Shown here piece after piece: positions 57,411 to 64,000 of a DNA stretch of 64,000 bases. Origin of the DNA: Methanoculleus frigidifontis (GTDB lineage Archaea > Halobacteriota > Methanomicrobia > Methanomicrobiales > Methanoculleaceae); the NCBI RefSeq assembly GCF_030464345.1, contig NZ_VCYH01000001.1, positions 434,001-498,000 of the forward strand, in the 5' to 3' direction. Within the stretch, counting starts at the first letter, position 1, and the number at the start of each line of letters is the position of its first letter. The position numbers and the translations under genes were made by a program. The notes beneath the pieces are model-generated. The model searched no databases. It worked only from the letters and a program-made list of their open reading frames with translations, and had not been told where the DNA came from.

Positions 57411-58739
57411 ATGTCCCCGGATACCGTTTCAACACTCCTCAAAAGGATCGAGCAGGACAACGTACGGTTTCTGCGCCTCCAGTTCACCGATCTCCTCGGC
57501 ATGCCCAAGAACGTCGCGATCCCCGTCAGCCAGGCTGAGAAGGCGCTGACCGACGGTATCGGGTTCGACGGCTCCTCGATCGAGGGGTTCGCCCGGATCG
57601 AAGAGTCGGATATGCTCCTGAAGCCGGATTTTGACACCTACACCATCCTCCCGTGGCGGCCGCACGAGAACACGGTCGCCCGGTTCGTCTGCGACGTGAC
57701 CGGGCCCGACGGCCGGCCGTTCGAGGGCGACCCGCGCTGCGTCCTGCGGCGCGTGACGGAGGATGCGAGGAAGGACGGCTACACCTTCAACACCGGCCCG
57801 GAGCTTGAGTTCTTCCTCTTCCGGATGGTCGATGGCCGGCCGACGACGCTCTTCCAGGACGTCGGCGGCTACTTCGATCTCGCCCCGACCGATCTCGCCG
57901 AGAACGTCCGCAGCGACATTATCCTTGCTCTCGAGGCGATGGGCTTTGAGATCGAGGCGTCCCACCACGAGGTTGCCGAGAGCCAGCACGAGATCGACTT
58001 CAAGTACAGCGACGCCCTGACGACTGCAGACCGCGTCATGACCTTTAAATTCGCGGTCAAGACGCTCGCCCTCATGAACAATCTCCACGCGAGTTTCATG
58101 GCCAAACCGATCTACGGCATCTGCGGCAGCGGTATGCACGTGAACTGCTCGCTCGCCAGGGACGGGAAGAACGCCTTCTATGACCCCGACGGCTGGCAGC
58201 AGCTCTCCGAGACCTGCATGCACTTCATCGGCGGCGTCCTTGCCCACGCAAAAGCGATCACCCGGGTGGCGAACCCGACGGTCAACTCCTACAAACGGCT
58301 GGTGCCCGGCTACGAGGCGCCGTGCTACATCACCTGGAGCACCTCCAACCGCTCAACGCAGGTTCGGATCCCCGCACCCCGCGGCAACAGCACCCGCGCC
58401 GAGTTCCGGAGCCCCGATCCGACCTGCAACCCCTACCTGGCGTTCGCCGCGCTCCTTGCGGCGGGTATGGACGGCGTCCGGAACCGGACCGAGCCCCCGG
58501 CGAGCACCAATACGAACATCTACCACATGACCGCCGCCGAGCGGCAGAAAGCCGGGATCGAGACGCTGCCGGCGAACCTCTACGAGGCGAACCAGGCGCT
58601 CCTCGCCGACGACGTCATCTGCAGAGCGCTCGGCAGCCATGTCGTCGACGCACTCGCGTCCATTGCAGACCTTGAATGGGACTCCTTCCGGACAGCGGTG
58701 CACCCCTGGGAGCTCGACCGCTACCTCGCGACCTACTGA
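57411..58739 (+). CDS. glnA: Glutamine synthetase type I
   Basis: A 442-residue GSI making glutamine from glutamate, ammonia and ATP; it should form dodecamers in the cytoplasm. Signatures are the beta-grasp DGIGFDGSSIEGFARIEESDM, GPELEFFLF, VNCSLARDGK preceded by GICGSGMH, the ATP-site NPTVNSYKRLVPGYEAP, and the R-x-PxxxG loop RIPAPRGNS. The short length and lack of the adenylylation-loop Tyr segment put it with the GSI-alpha group. A GTGTTAAAC TATA-like box about 35 bases upstream gives a short leader. No PII gene is adjacent. It ends convergently with the isoprenoid enzyme pair. Confidence 0.96.
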   Translation: MSPDTVSTLLKRIEQDNVRFLRLQFTDLLGMPKNVAIPVSQAEKALTDGIGFDGSSIEGFARIEESDMLLKPDFDTYTILPWRPHENTVARFVCDVTGPDGRPFEGDPRCVLRRVTEDARKDGYTFNTGPELEFFLFRMVDGRPTTLFQDVGGYFDLAPTDLAENVRSDIILALEAMGFEIEASHHEVAESQHEIDFKYSDALTTADRVMTFKFAVKTLALMNNLHASFMAKPIYGICGSGMHVNCSLARDGKNAFYDPDGWQQLSETCMHFIGGVLAHAKAITRVANPTVNSYKRLVPGYEAPCYITWSTSNRSTQVRIPAPRGNSTRAEFRSPDPTCNPYLAFAALLAAGMDGVRNRTEPPASTNTNIYHMTAAERQKAGIETLPANLYEANQALLADDVICRALGSHVVDALASIADLEWDSFRTAVHPWELDRYLATY

Positions 58740-58760
58740 GCATACCCCCAAATCTCTTTT

Positions 58761-60275
58761 CTACCCCGCATCGTTCGTGCAGGGCGGTTGCCGGTTTTTC
58801 ATCTCAAGGGCGAGCGTTGTGCATTCCCGCGCGATCTCGGTTTCAAAATCCGTCACCATGCAGTACTCGCGGCCTCCCCTGCACAGTTCGTTCGGTATTC
58901 GTTCATCGGGAAACTGCATGTCACGGAAGAATATGCAGAGGTCTCCACCCTGGTTGCTCATCTGCAGGGCTTTGAGCGACTGGAAGATGCACGTCATATA
59001 GAGCCTGCAGGCATCCTTCATCTCCGGATAGTCGACGTATGCCGTCCGGGACAGTGCCGTAAGAAGGATGTCGATCGGGTGATGCTGGAGCCGGCCGACC
59101 CCGTTCGGGTAATACGTAAACGCCGTCACGATTCCGGTGCGCAGGTCGTCGGGAATATCGCGCAGATCGTCGGGCAGCTGAAAGAGGTATCCTGATCGCA
59201 GACAGTGTGCCACGAATCTCCCGGTGATCTTGCAGTCTGCAAGAACTGCAGGAATAATGCGTGTATATGCTCCTTTGAGGGCTGCGTGCACGTACAGATT
59301 TTCATCCGAGAGTGAACGATCACCGGCCCATCCCGCACCCATCACCGATACTTCGGCGAGGACGGCATATGCCTTCGCTGCCATATTCCATCGCTCTTCC
59401 GAGAGTGTTTCCCGCAGGGTGATCAGTGCATCTTCGGTGTACGCCATGAGCGCGTCCTGCGAGAACTGTGGTCTGTCTCCTCTCCTGCTTGAGAGTATCT
59501 GCAAAATATTCCGGTAATATGCTTCTTTCTCTGCAGCGGAGTATGCCGGATCGTCGATGATCTCGTCAAAAAGATAGGTCTTGCCGAAAGAGGATCCGAT
59601 CCGAAACTTTTGGAGATACTCAATCTCTGGGGCCTGGTGGTTGAATTTCATTGCGCCGAAGAATGAACCGAGATATTTTGCAAAGAGTCCCCGCCGGATG
59701 TATTGTTCGGGACAGACTGCAACAAATCTGCAGACTTCGCTCTGGAGCAGTGCAGCCTCTTCGCTGCCGATTCCTGTCAGTTTGCCGAAGAGCTTTACCA
59801 GAGCATCAGGCTGAATGATGCGGTCCGGATCCGCACCTGCGACAAGATCTCTGTTTTGGAGGTATTTTCCCTTCAGGTCTTTTTTGAATTGCCGTACTTC
59901 GTTTTCCCGGCGTACAATCCCCTTATCTCTGAGTGAGGAATACCGGTAGTAGGTGACGGCTTCACGGTACATCGTGGAGTATCCCCGATACTGTTCGAGG
60001 TTCGTCGTGAGGAGCCCGTCTATGGATCTGACAGCCCGGGCGATGCGCCGCCGGTTGCAAAGCCTCCTCTGCTCCTGCCGTATGATGTTCGCGATCCTGT
60101 CGGGATCATATCCGTTGTTTCTGTACTGCAGGAGGTCGGCAAAGTCCCGGAGAACGTATCGGTGCGAGGCAGCATAGAGATCGGCACTGTCGTGAGCGCC
60201 GTAGAGTGCATCCAATACTTCCTGAACCGTGATACCCGCCTCCTCTGGCCTTCTGATGGTTCCAAAACGTTTCAA
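58761..60275 (-). CDS. Class I isoprenoid synthase-like enzyme 1
   Basis: A 504-residue soluble protein. The C-terminal 300 residues have the all-alpha class I terpenoid-synthase pattern with two Asp-rich motifs: DEIID at 237-241 (YLFDEIIDDP) and DDLRD at 369-373 (FQLPDDLRDIPDDL). They are 132 residues apart, about the spacing of trans-prenyl transferases. The first 160 residues are helical and match nothing I know. The second motif is reminiscent of phytoene/squalene synthases. The first motif is slightly divergent (DE instead of DD). The start is TTG at 60275, overlapping the stop of the upstream paralog. Substrate and product are unknown. Confidence 0.75.
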   Translation of the reverse strand: MKRFGTIRRPEEAGITVQEVLDALYGAHDSADLYAASHRYVLRDFADLLQYRNNGYDPDRIANIIRQEQRRLCNRRRIARAVRSIDGLLTTNLEQYRGYSTMYREAVTYYRYSSLRDKGIVRRENEVRQFKKDLKGKYLQNRDLVAGADPDRIIQPDALVKLFGKLTGIGSEEAALLQSEVCRFVAVCPEQYIRRGLFAKYLGSFFGAMKFNHQAPEIEYLQKFRIGSSFGKTYLFDEIIDDPAYSAAEKEAYYRNILQILSSRRGDRPQFSQDALMAYTEDALITLRETLSEERWNMAAKAYAVLAEVSVMGAGWAGDRSLSDENLYVHAALKGAYTRIIPAVLADCKITGRFVAHCLRSGYLFQLPDDLRDIPDDLRTGIVTAFTYYPNGVGRLQHHPIDILLTALSRTAYVDYPEMKDACRLYMTCIFQSLKALQMSNQGGDLCIFFRDMQFPDERIPNELCRGGREYCMVTDFETEIARECTTLALEMKNRQPPCTNDAG

Positions 60276-61735
60276 TGGCCATAGACCGGCTTGCTGCTCC
60301 AGCCGCCCCGCATGGTAACGGCGCTGTCCGAAGAGGTCTTCGCCGCTTCAGCCTCGATATCGACGATCACGCTGCTGTATTCACCTATGCGCGCCATTTC
60401 GGTGGTACAGGCATCGTCAGGGAAATGCAGTTCGCGAAAGAGTGTCTGCAGGTTCTCTTCCCCGTGCTTCATCTGGAGCATGCGGAGGGAGTGCGATATT
60501 CGGAGTACCCAGAGATCCCGTGCATCAGGTATGTTCCGGAGGTTTTCTTCCGAGATTCTGCGCACTGCCGCAAAGAACACCTCAACCGGGTGGACATCCA
60601 TGGCGCTGATGCCGTAGCGATAGTAATTGAACGGCGTGATGGTTTCTTCCTCCAGATCGTCGGTGATGTCGCGGAGGTCATCCGTAAGCTGATAGATGAG
60701 GCCCGCTCGCATGCAGTGTGCCAGAAACCCGGAATCGATGGTGTGGCCTGCAAGGATTGCCGGAATGATCCGGGTATATGCCGCTTTTATGGTGGCAATG
60801 GCGTACAGATCCGCCTCGGTAAGCGGCGTGGTATACTTCCAGTGGGATCCTGTGTAGGTCGCCTGCGCAATCGCGTGGTATGACTGCGCGACCATTCGTC
60901 CTCGCCGTTCATCAAGGATATCGCGCATATCCGTAAATGCCCGCTCCGAGAAGGCCATTACCGGATCGTTCGAATACTCCTGTTCGTCATACTTTTTGCT
61001 CGCGAGAATCTGCAGGACGTTCTGGAAATAGTCTGTCTTCTCCTCATCCGGATATCCCGGATCGTCGAGAATATCATCGAAGAGATACGTTGTTGCAAAG
61101 TGTCCTGAAAGCCGTGCAATACTCGTATAATCGGTGTTGCCGGCAGTCCGTGCAAAGAAGAACACCCCAAAAACAGATCGCATGAACTTTCCGAATACGC
61201 CCTTTTCAAGATAGGATTTTGGGCAGATGTCTATGAATTCACGGATGTATGCATGCAGCCATACAAAAGGTTCTTCTTGCTCTGTTCTACAGAAATACTG
61301 TGCAATCTGAATAAATTCTTCCTGCGACTCCAGAAAACTGTGATTCTCGCTCCGGCTTCCTGCAAGCAGCATCTCAACCCATCCGTGTATCTCGTCCTTC
61401 TCACGGTCCTGGTCCGCATTGATACCGAGATCCCGCATCATTGCAAATCGGTATATCCGCTCCTCAGCCAGCAAAAGCTCCCTGCGCTGCAGTCCCTTTT
61501 CGATATCGGTGGATAGGATCCGATCGGTGTACCCCACAACCGCTCGAACCCTCTTTAGATTCATGAGCCGTCTGCGCTCTCTTTTGAGAGACACAAGTAC
61601 GCGTTCCGGGTGATGCCTCTCCCTTCGGAATGCCAGCAGGTTCTGATAGTCATGTTCTGCATACGCATACGAGGCGCGGAATATATCGTGTTCCGGCGTT
61701 TCTCCAAAAAGGGCAATTCTCAAGTCTTCCGTCAT
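60272..61735 (-). CDS. Class I isoprenoid synthase-like enzyme 2
   Basis: A 487-residue paralog of the next gene downstream. It has canonical motifs DDILD at 220-224 (YLFDDILDDP) and DDLRD at 352-356 (YQLTDDLRDITDDLEEE), also 132 residues apart. The same kind of helical N-terminal domain (residues 1-150) is present, with QNLLAFRRERHHPERVLVSL resembling QYRNNGYDPDRIANIIRQE in enzyme 1. It is probably a prenyl-diphosphate-using enzyme: a synthase, cyclase or head-to-head coupling enzyme. It is the first gene of the pair and coupled by overlap (TTGA). An IS21 element begins 12-13 bases before its ATG, so its native promoter is displaced. Confidence 0.78.
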   Translation of the reverse strand: MTEDLRIALFGETPEHDIFRASYAYAEHDYQNLLAFRRERHHPERVLVSLKRERRRLMNLKRVRAVVGYTDRILSTDIEKGLQRRELLLAEERIYRFAMMRDLGINADQDREKDEIHGWVEMLLAGSRSENHSFLESQEEFIQIAQYFCRTEQEEPFVWLHAYIREFIDICPKSYLEKGVFGKFMRSVFGVFFFARTAGNTDYTSIARLSGHFATTYLFDDILDDPGYPDEEKTDYFQNVLQILASKKYDEQEYSNDPVMAFSERAFTDMRDILDERRGRMVAQSYHAIAQATYTGSHWKYTTPLTEADLYAIATIKAAYTRIIPAILAGHTIDSGFLAHCMRAGLIYQLTDDLRDITDDLEEETITPFNYYRYGISAMDVHPVEVFFAAVRRISEENLRNIPDARDLWVLRISHSLRMLQMKHGEENLQTLFRELHFPDDACTTEMARIGEYSSVIVDIEAEAAKTSSDSAVTMRGGWSSKPVYGH

Positions 61736-61753
61736 ACAATGCCCGGATGTTTT

Positions 61754-61809
61754 GGCTCATCGTAAACTGATCCACTTTCCCCAAAAAGGCTCACCATAAA
61801 TTGATCCAC
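61754..61809 (+). repeat. IS21 left-end direct repeats
   Basis: Two 22-base copies start GGCTCATCGTAAACTGATCC and GGCTCACCATAAATTGATCC and are spaced 34 bases apart. They differ at four positions. They are probable IstA binding sites. Confidence 0.85.
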
Positions 61810-61864
61810 CTATCCCCCCTCCGGTTCCATCATCCGATCTGGAGGGGTCCTGTAGGTGAAATCG

Positions 61865-63343
61865 ATGAGCGATATCCGACGCATTGTAGAGCTCTATAAT
61901 CTCTATGGATCCAAGAGACGAGTCGCCAGAGAACTCAATATCTCCCGGAATACCGTAGCACGGTATCTCCAGCGGGTTCAGGAGGTCAAAGATGGAATCG
62001 AAGAAACAATTCTTCCCCGGGATCGTCAGATTCAGCGTTCCTGCACTGCTCTCACTCCCGAGATTCGAGACCAGATCCATGCGATCTTAAAGGCGAATGC
62101 TGACCTCCCGAAGAAACAGCGGTGGACTGGACGGAAGATCTGGGATCATCTCGTCAAAGAGGGTTATACCATCAGTCATAGCACCGTCAAACGGGAGGTT
62201 GCTTTATGGAAAGACCAGTATGGTCATCGGGAAGTCTACATCGCTCAGGAAACGGATCCCGGGTGCCGCGCAGAGTTTGACTTTGGCAAGACGGATCTCC
62301 AGGTCAATGCCCGCTGGGGCAAGTTTCCCATGGCCTCCATGGTGCTCAACCATTCCCTGTATCGGTTCTCCTACCTTTACCATCGTGAGACATTGCTTGA
62401 GGTTCTTGATGCGCACATTCGGTTCTTCAACGAGATCGGTGGCGTACCGGAGACCATCTTCTACGATAACATGGCGGCCATCATCAACCCCAGAACCAAA
62501 GAGTGGAACTCCCGGTTTCTTGAGTTTTCCCTCCACTATGGGTTTGAACCCCATGCCTGCAATCCCCGGTCTCCGCACGAGAAAGGAACAGATGAGCAGT
62601 CTGTCGGCTACGTGAGACGGCGGGCATTCAGTGAGCGAACCACGTTCTCATCCCTAAAGGAAGCAAACCAGTATCTGGCAACAGCGGTCAAAGAGATCAA
62701 TGAGGGTTTCGTGTATCGCCGACCATCCCCTCCCAGTACAGGCCTCCTTCACGAGCAAGAAACATTTGCTCCTCTCCCGGCTCTTGAGTGTTCAACCTAT
62801 CAATCCCGTTCAGCCAGGATCTCAAAATACTCACATGTTGTCTTCGAGTCAAACTACTATTCGGTGCCGGATACCTATCCCGGGAATTATCTCACCCTGA
62901 ACTACTCTCCCGACACCGTTGAGCTGGTCGGTGGCAATGAGTTGCTTGCATGTCACGAACGCCGATTCGGAAAAGGGGAATTGGCCTACGACCTCACGCA
63001 CTTTCTCAAAACCTTTTCACGAAAACCGGGTGCACTCCAGCATTCCCGGGTATTCCGGCAGTTAGACGAGGCAATTCAGCACCTGCTCCATCAGCACTAT
63101 GCCGGGAGACACAAAGACTTCCTGCCGATCCTCTCGCTGTTCCATGAAGCATCGGAAGAGGAACTCGTTGCCGCGATCCGACTCCTGGAAGATCATGGCA
63201 TGGTTCCTACCTATGAGACCCTGCGATGCGTCATCATGCACCAGGCAGTTCAGCTGCCGGAGACCTCGTTTCCTCCGGATCGTATCAGCATGGAGGAACC
63301 GAATTTCTCTCACTACGATGGCTATCTCCGGGGTGTTCTCTGA
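61865..63343 (+). CDS. istA: IS21 transposase IstA
   Basis: A 492-residue DDE transposase. N-terminal HTH (IRRIVELYNLYGSKRRVARELNISRNTVARYL). The rve-type catalytic core starts at AEFDFGKTDLQV (first Asp), then YDNMAAIINP (second Asp) and SPHEKGTDEQSVGYVRR (Glu). The C-terminal Mu-transposase-like beta domain carries YQSRSARISKYSHVVFESNYY. ATG 61865 with AGGTGA five bases upstream is the better start; GTG 61856 is in frame. The stop overlaps the istB ATG (TGATG-type overlap at 63341-63345). Confidence 0.94.
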   Translation: MSDIRRIVELYNLYGSKRRVARELNISRNTVARYLQRVQEVKDGIEETILPRDRQIQRSCTALTPEIRDQIHAILKANADLPKKQRWTGRKIWDHLVKEGYTISHSTVKREVALWKDQYGHREVYIAQETDPGCRAEFDFGKTDLQVNARWGKFPMASMVLNHSLYRFSYLYHRETLLEVLDAHIRFFNEIGGVPETIFYDNMAAIINPRTKEWNSRFLEFSLHYGFEPHACNPRSPHEKGTDEQSVGYVRRRAFSERTTFSSLKEANQYLATAVKEINEGFVYRRPSPPSTGLLHEQETFAPLPALECSTYQSRSARISKYSHVVFESNYYSVPDTYPGNYLTLNYSPDTVELVGGNELLACHERRFGKGELAYDLTHFLKTFSRKPGALQHSRVFRQLDEAIQHLLHQHYAGRHKDFLPILSLFHEASEEELVAAIRLLEDHGMVPTYETLRCVIMHQAVQLPETSFPPDRISMEEPNFSHYDGYLRGVL

Positions 63344-64000
63344 TGCCTGCCGGAATTGAAGAACTCTGTCATATCCTGCGTCTCTCAGGGCTTGCTGCGG
63401 CAGTACGGGAACTTGAACCCGGTCCATGCTCCGAAGAGATTACGGGTTTTCTCCTTCATGCTCTGGAGTCTGAATACGAACTGAGATTAGCACGAAAACG
63501 GCTGAATGCCATCCGAATCGCGGGGTTTCCCACGATGAAGCGGTTTGATGAGGTTGTGGTCGATCTGTTGCCGGACGATGGACGAGCGTATCTTGCTGTC
63601 CTGAAACAGTTGCAGTTCATCGAAGAGCATCAGAATATCCTGATGATCGGGAACTCGGGAACCGGGAAGACCCATCTGGCGATCGCCACGGGAGTCCTGG
63701 CCTGTGAACACGGGTATCGGGTGATGTTCAAGACGACGGCGGGACTTGTCAATGAGTTGGTTGAAGCGAAACAGGAGCGGCGATTGACGTATCTTCTCCG
63801 ACAGCTGAAACGAGTGGATCTCCTGATCCTGGATGAATTGGGGTATATTACCTTTGACCTTGCAGGAGCGGAACTGCTCTTCCAGTTGCTTGCGTCTCGG
63901 TATGAGACCGCGAGCACGATGATTACGTCAAACCTGGTCTTCTCCGAGTGGGTGAAGATCTTTCACGATAAGGCACTGACAGCTGCCGTGCTTGACCGAA
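63343..64000 (+). CDS. istB: IS21 helper ATPase IstB, cut by the window end
   Basis: 219 codons are visible of a protein normally about 250 residues long. An N-terminal helical region is followed by Walker A GNSGTGKTH (residues about 103-111) and Walker B LLILDELGY, then SRYETASTMITSNLVFSEW, all typical of the DnaA/DnaC-like IstB ATPase. It assists IstA in target selection and strand transfer. The reading frame is open to base 64000 and continues outside the window. Confidence 0.93.
   Translation, partial: MPAGIEELCHILRLSGLAAAVRELEPGPCSEEITGFLLHALESEYELRLARKRLNAIRIAGFPTMKRFDEVVVDLLPDDGRAYLAVLKQLQFIEEHQNILMIGNSGTGKTHLAIATGVLACEHGYRVMFKTTAGLVNELVEAKQERRLTYLLRQLKRVDLLILDELGYITFDLAGAELLFQLLASRYETASTMITSNLVFSEWVKIFHDKALTAAVLDR

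Follow-up and report, generated by a model that had tools for sequence, protein, structure and literature searches.

A coupled pair of paralogous class I isoprenoid synthase-like proteins in Methanoculleus frigidifontis and related methanogens

The DNA considered here is a stretch of 64,000 nucleotides from the archaeon Methanoculleus frigidifontis (positions 434,001 to 498,000 of contig NZ_VCYH01000001.1, assembly GCF_030464345.1), referred to below as the window. Toward one end of it are two coupled genes, A and B, whose products are class I isoprenoid synthase-like paralogs. Their features are listed below, with invariance judged over the family set used throughout, namely 12 proteins (seven A and five B).

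60272-61735, minus strand: gene A, 487 amino acids, ATG start; first gene of the pair; class I isoprenoid synthase-like
58761-60275, minus strand: gene B, 504 amino acids, TTG start; paralog of A; start codon uncertain
61466-61735, minus strand: N-terminal extension of A, approximately residues 1-90, common to B; boundary approximate
61061-61078, minus strand: first Asp-rich motif of A, DDILDD, residues 220-225; D220, D224, and D225 invariant in 12 of 12
60770-60805, minus strand: helix of A preceding the second motif, YAIATIKAAYTR, residues 311-322; Y311, K317, Y320, T321, and R322 invariant
60656-60682, minus strand: second Asp-rich motif of A, DDLRDITDD, residues 352-360; D352, L354, R355, D356, and D360 invariant
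59550-59567, minus strand: first Asp-rich motif of B, DEIIDD, residues 237-242; invariant in five of five B proteins
59145-59171, minus strand: second Asp-rich motif of B, DDLRDIPDD, residues 369-377

Both open reading frames (ORFs), of 504 and 487 residues, had been marked in a first-pass annotation of this DNA and are indeed present as a coupled pair on the minus strand, with the B frame overlapping the stop codon of A by 4 nt. Full-length relatives of A, with identities of 47-64%, occur in six other genomes, and thus A and B are real genes rather than chance ORFs. The two proteins are 33% identical to one another across 476 residues (E-value of 1e-96) and are full-length paralogs. In four of the relatives, gene B has its own ATG or similar start located 54 to 96 bases past the stop codon of A. 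The N-termini of those B proteins correspond to approximately residue 16 of B, and for this reason its start codon is regarded as uncertain. A Val-x-Gly-His sequence is found at the C-terminus of all seven A proteins (60272-60286 in the window) but not at that of the B proteins.

Both Asp-rich motifs are present in every one of the 12 family members, invariably spaced by 132 residues, and Lys 183 (A numbering) is likewise invariant throughout. The complete set of metal-binding acids retained in each protein speaks for both A and B being catalytically active. The spacing in the two proteins had been reported correctly in the first-pass annotation. Its uniqueness was rejected, given that the same spacing is observed in 18 of 21 geranylgeranyl diphosphate (GGPP) synthases of related genomes (two have 133 residues and one was unscored).

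The sets kept for comparison comprised 21 of 21 GGPP synthases, seven of seven second PF00348 copies, and 14 of 30 squalene/phytoene synthase (SQS/PSY) loci, the remaining 16 of which either lacked the selecting pattern for the second motif or contained no ORF at that position. GGKRxR, and likewise RRG following the first DDxxD, both of which we take to be isopentenyl-diphosphate-binding motifs, occur in 21 of 21 GGPP synthases and in none of the 12 family members or the 14 SQS/PSY proteins. Chain elongation is disfavored by their absence, and the class I chemistries that then remain are cyclization or head-to-head coupling. The second Asp-rich motif conforms to Q[LM]x[DN]x[LIV]RDxxxD in 12 of 12 family members, in 0 of 21 GGPP synthases, and in 13 of 14 SQS/PSY proteins, the last count, but not the 0 of 21, being biased toward the motif by the pattern used in selection. 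An invariant tyrosine lies 41 residues ahead of this motif in all 12 proteins, and a tyrosine is found 35-41 residues ahead of it in 14 of 14 SQS/PSY proteins. In a joint alignment, the helix before the second motif is in register with that of SQS/PSY, with little gap; the GGPP synthases have four more residues in this helix, including KT. Asp 352, Asp 356, and Asp 360 form a DxxxDxxxD arrangement at positions i, i+4, and i+8, which is presumably the spacing of the NSE/DTE triad, but without its Ser/Thr and Glu residues. The triad is named in PMC10563020.

An AlphaFold2 model of A, calculated from a 12-row alignment, has a predicted local distance difference test score (pLDDT) of 87.1 and a predicted template modeling score (pTM) of 0.88. 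When solved structures were searched with Foldseek, all 50 of the best matches listed were class I enzymes by title, with probabilities of 0.96-1.00. Included among them were trichodiene synthase, farnesyl diphosphate (FPP) and GGPP synthases, BjKS, pentalenene synthase, and CrtM. Upon structural realignment (VIA), the Z value to BjKS (4xlx) was 14.0 for 254 residues at 10% identity, and the other rows gave 12.7-13.7, all 50 listed being terpene synthases. The absence of named families from these 50 rows was not taken as evidence, and the nearest branch of the superfamily cannot be read from structural Z values. The Asp-rich motifs are positioned at the ends of two helices of the model (218-223, and 335-355 with 357-363). 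Because all rows listed belong to one superfamily and the motifs lie at two helix ends, the case for A is persuasive, and the all-helical class I isoprenoid synthase fold originally proposed is supported by the model, Foldseek, and realignment. B, we infer, shares this fold. Two uncharacterized proteins of giant viruses, the BFVD entries A0A481ZCB8 from Pithovirus LCPAC403 (4.3e-5) and A0A6G8MX44 from Cedratvirus kamchatka (1.3e-4), match the fold of A better than any solved structure and are alone in having an E-value under 0.001.

Most of the listed class I structures align with A from residues 88-96 onward, and BjKS from residue 145, where the ranges reflect the first and last aligned residues only. 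On the basis of the model, what is extra in A would seem to be approximately 90 N-terminal residues and an insertion at about 105-145, rather than the whole helical domain of about 150 residues first described. Within residues 1-152, identity to A is 24-51% for the A proteins and 21-27% for the B proteins. Modeled alone, this region has a pLDDT of 64 and a pTM of 0.43, and an independent N-terminal domain was rejected on account of this poor isolated prediction. Since residues 1-152 are predicted to fold with confidence only within the whole protein, it is more likely that the N-terminal part extends the protein integrally than that it forms a free domain.

All family members fall short of the Pfam and NCBIfam cut-offs, and NCBIfam gave nothing for the 12 proteins. 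For six of the seven A proteins the best Pfam match is PF00348, with a top score of 24.8 bits (1.5e-5); its gathering cut-off of 27 bits is passed by none of the 12. PF19086 (Terpene_syn_C_2) shows a sub-threshold match in three of five B proteins, the best being 17.9 bits versus a cut-off of 23.7 bits. These weak scores point to the isoprenoid synthase superfamily. In a comparison of profiles, performed on the alignment core without realignment (whole alignments with realignment matched only at their ends), the P value was 3.4e-4 to GGPP synthases, 0.028 to SQS/PSY, and 0.26 to archaeal PF19086 proteins. For two accepted relatives, GGPP synthases and SQS/PSY, it was 0.018. By this measure the family therefore appears to be approximately as far from GGPP synthases and SQS/PSY as these are from each other. 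As the first-pass annotation had anticipated, there is no membership in a curated family, with PF00348, PF00494, and PF19086 all below their cut-offs. A and B constitute a new, uncurated, conserved family within a known superfamily and are not categorically new. Taken as a whole, the earlier interpretation is partly supported, namely with respect to the fold, the paralogy, and the lack of a curated family, whereas its use of the motif spacing as evidence and its free-standing N-terminal domain are not supported. Among 294 genomes sampled from the phylum, 13, including three from this order, encode a separate archaeal PF19086 family, mostly of about 320-340 amino acids and with a GNWxxTWxRE-like motif. 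Its proteins do not match the A/B family (E-values of 34 or worse, Z=1000).

A search with A of 232 genomes of the order gave eight matches, of which one (G118, 26% identity over 112 residues, E-value of 3.7e-5, with neighbors that look chemotaxis-like by eye) was dropped, leaving seven carriers in five of 40 genera. A profile search of the same genomes returned the same seven and G003, which was also dropped as an ordinary GGPP synthase by sequence. Within a phylum sample of 392 genomes the family was found in four only, all of this order. A motif scan of 84,980 genomes, one per species, gave 66 candidate stretches and from these four loci in Methanomicrobiaceae or Methanocalculus, which correspond to G096, G016, G019, and G112, already among the seven; the scan needs exact motif matches, and thus distant relatives could escape it. 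The family is present in the named isolate Methanocalculus taiwanensis. No member was found in the viral contigs or plasmids searched, a set that did not extend to the phage collection.

Five carriers, namely M. frigidifontis, G096, G119, G120, and G019, have genes A and B side by side. In G016, one contig ends with A and a different contig ends with a C-terminal fragment of a second copy, and this genome is probably a sixth carrier of the pair. In a maximum-likelihood tree the seven A and five B proteins fall on opposite sides of a single branch with support of 100/100. Given this separation, the sequences indicate that either the A/B duplication predates the divergence of the carrier genera or the pair traveled between genera as a unit. 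The original description of A and B as divergent coupled paralogs is borne out by the tree and by their pairing across the carriers, which show them to be old duplicates retained together.

The ordinary GGPP synthase of M. frigidifontis is a separate gene and is located elsewhere, on contig C2. A second PF00348 gene lies on C5 and one SQS/PSY gene on C4. M. frigidifontis is the only carrier with an SQS/PSY (PF00494) gene, the other six of seven being without one, and PF00494 is missing from most sampled genomes of the order. No isoprenoid-tailoring gene was recognized among 20 neighboring proteins scanned, and therefore the locus does not show the whole of the terpene pathway that had been suggested. 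The same 20 proteins, which do not include every neighbor, contained no hpnE or hopanoid genes.

By inspection, no gene neighbor is common to the carriers, except that G119 and G120, which are of one genus, share their locus. In both of these a fusion of a methyltransferase with an ATP-grasp domain (D-Ala-D-Ala ligase C-terminal) is encoded directly downstream on the same strand (L015:4856-6829 and L017:5011-6960, the Pfam assignment being that of the L015 copy, from G119, only). Genes for PAS, histidine-kinase, or response-regulator proteins adjoin the pair in four of the seven carriers, G096, G016, G120, and G112 (L014:8429-9868, L016:7042-8211, L017:10455-12215, and L019:5772-8621). This pattern was spotted post hoc, and with 24 to at least 150 PAS matches per genome the adjacency may be due to chance. 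A role in defense was considered and rejected; PADLOC gave two single-member matches, the best at 0.0013 to a type II methyltransferase model, and these were judged to be chance.

The remaining features of the locus are as follows.

58740-64000, no strand: accessory segment, without counterpart in the sister genome G081 (blastn)
61748-64000, continuing to 64152 beyond the window, plus strand: IS21-family element; terminal repeats doubled, istA assigned by Pfam
61856-63343 (istA) and from 63226 (istB-like), plus strand: genes within the IS21-family element

In G081, a sister species, the homologues of positions 58739 and 64390 are just 31 bp apart, so that everything from 58740 up to shortly before 64390 is missing there. 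The GC content of the pair is 53.6%. All 221 stretches of equal length in the first 58 kb are higher (mean 61.7%, lowest value 55.4%), and the third-position GC of the pair is 61-63% versus 88% for glnA. Because the pair is absent from this site in G081, is low in GC, and adjoins an IS21 element, it is in this genome accessory, exchanged DNA. The element is flanked by a 6 bp target duplication, CCCGGA, the left copy of which occupies 61742-61747, and it ends 12 bp upstream of the A start codon. Both ORFs are still open, and the native promoter and leader have been displaced by the element. Since IS21 occupies the place of the A promoter, the pair may be poorly expressed in this genome.

With regard to function, the reading we favor, and hold to be somewhat more probable than not, is that A and B are class I isoprenoid synthases that ionize an allylic diphosphate and then condense or cyclize it, rather than elongating a chain. 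Each protein would use its two Asp-rich motifs to hold Mg2+ and, by way of the metal, bind the allylic diphosphate. The substrate would most likely be GGPP, the C20 diphosphate that these archaea make for their membrane lipids. Expulsion of the diphosphate would yield a carbocation, and this would be quenched as it either condenses with a second prenyl chain or cyclizes. A and B probably cooperate, as the duplicates have been retained as a pair, and they could do so as a heteromer or in two successive steps, of which HpnD and HpnC in bacterial squalene synthesis are an example; catalysis, substrate, and cooperation are here inferred. Two-step head-to-head synthesis by the tandem paralogs HpnD and HpnC is described in PMC5462960, where hpnC, hpnD, and hpnE are also noted to be located apart in some cases. 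In termites, proteins derived from GGPP synthases became terpene synthases (PMC13143122).

Of the two routes contained within this reading, cyclization would make each protein, or the pair, a terpene synthase whose product from a single GGPP (or FPP) is a diterpene (or sesquiterpene), either cyclic or linear. The fold is shared with class I terpene synthases such as BjKS and epi-isozizaene synthase, the 50 realignment rows listed being all of that kind, and so is the i, i+4, i+8 spacing of the acids in the second motif; the weak Terpene_syn_C_2 match of three B proteins and the missing isopentenyl-diphosphate-site motifs are in keeping with it as well. However, A and B have DxxxDxxxD, with Asp replacing Ser/Thr and an invariant Arg preceding, where NxxxSxxxE would be usual, the best PF19086 score is below the cut-off, and the other PF19086 proteins of archaea show no match to the family. 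We regard this route as a serious possibility that falls short of an even chance. In the alternative route, A and B would each carry out one half-reaction of a squalene/phytoene-type 1'-1 coupling, in which two molecules of FPP or GGPP are joined. The pair resembles SQS/PSY (PF00494; CrtM, HpnC/HpnD) in its QLx[ND]xLRDxxxD second motif, which here reads QLxDDLRDxxxD, in the position of the invariant Tyr, in the length of the preceding helix, which is without the KT turn of GGPP synthases, and in having no isopentenyl-diphosphate-site motifs; HpnC and HpnD are, moreover, tandem divergent paralogs that act in succession (PMC5462960). In contrast to SQS/PSY, A and B are well over 100 residues longer, have Asp in place of their Asn, and show neither a PF00494 match nor the RxYxP stretch, and no hpnE-like neighbor was seen among the 20 proteins scanned. 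The absence of PF00494 from six carriers would suit this route, but it means little when most sampled genomes of the order are without it anyway. Head-to-head coupling is possible, although on the unlikely side.

Two further explanations depart from the favored reading. In one, A would be the catalytic and B the modifying subunit of a heteromeric, chain-elongating polyprenyl diphosphate synthase of the HexPS or heptaprenyl diphosphate synthase (HepPS) type. The family shares with the trans-polyprenyl diphosphate synthases (PF00348, including the archaeal GGPP synthases) its fold, DDxxD motifs, 132-residue spacing, and a weak sub-threshold score, PF00348 being the best Pfam match of most A proteins and the GGPP synthase alignment the best profile match. 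Heteromeric trans-prenyltransferases built from two genes and two subunits, such as mint geranyl diphosphate synthase, HexPS, and HepPS, are known (PMC7839719). Against elongation, A and B lack GGKRxR, the RRG that follows the first Asp-rich motif, and the KT turn, they carry extra N-terminal helices, and the genome already holds two PF00348 genes, an ordinary GGPP synthase among them. Furthermore, the small subunit of the mint enzyme has no Asp motifs (PMC7839719), whereas both A and B keep them, B in five of five cases. This explanation is improbable. In the other, the fold would have been reused for sensing or binding without catalysis. The immediate PAS or response-regulator neighbors in four carriers are what recommends it, but such genes are very common, three carriers have no such immediate neighbor, and the metal-binding acids do not vary in either paralog; we give it still less credence.

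Several observations weigh against the favored reading. None of the Foldseek matches among solved structures reached an E-value of 0.001, the best being 1.4e-3, a Z value of 14 can be attained by chance with unrelated helical models, and sequence-profile searches of solved structures gave no class I enzyme. PF00494 matches no member at E-values up to 10 (cut-off 26 bits), and the alignment shows [IV]T[PA]F[NT]Y in the family where SQS/PSY have RxYxP after the second motif. PF00348, the Pfam family most often matched, points toward prenyltransferases and not away from them, and the core profile matches to known branches are weak (3.4e-4 to GGPP synthases and 0.028 to SQS/PSY). The genome G112, which is 84% complete, shows A alone, such that A without B may be functional. 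Finally, the reaction class may be either coupling or cyclization.

No characterized archaeal terpene synthase pair was found in searches of open-licence literature; most subscription papers and preprints lay outside the search, and the result is no proof of absence. In the parts consulted of PMC6779861, PMC10563020, PMC7839719, and PMC13001223, no such pair is described.

In its most specific form, which we advance tentatively and consider doubtful, the proposal is that A and B form an archaeal two-component terpenoid synthase in which both subunits are catalytic, with an SQS-like active site and a new N-terminal extension, producing a C20-C40 terpenoid, cyclic or of head-to-head type, that is not known from methanogens. 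Terpene chemistry beyond membrane lipids is little known in these organisms, and a family that is not recognized by Pfam or NCBIfam would be overlooked in genome mining. A pair with complete active sites in both subunits would provide a useful case of isoprenoid steps divided between paralogs, and its occurrence in the named isolate M. taiwanensis makes direct testing feasible. The pair may make a compound that has not yet been looked for in methanogens.

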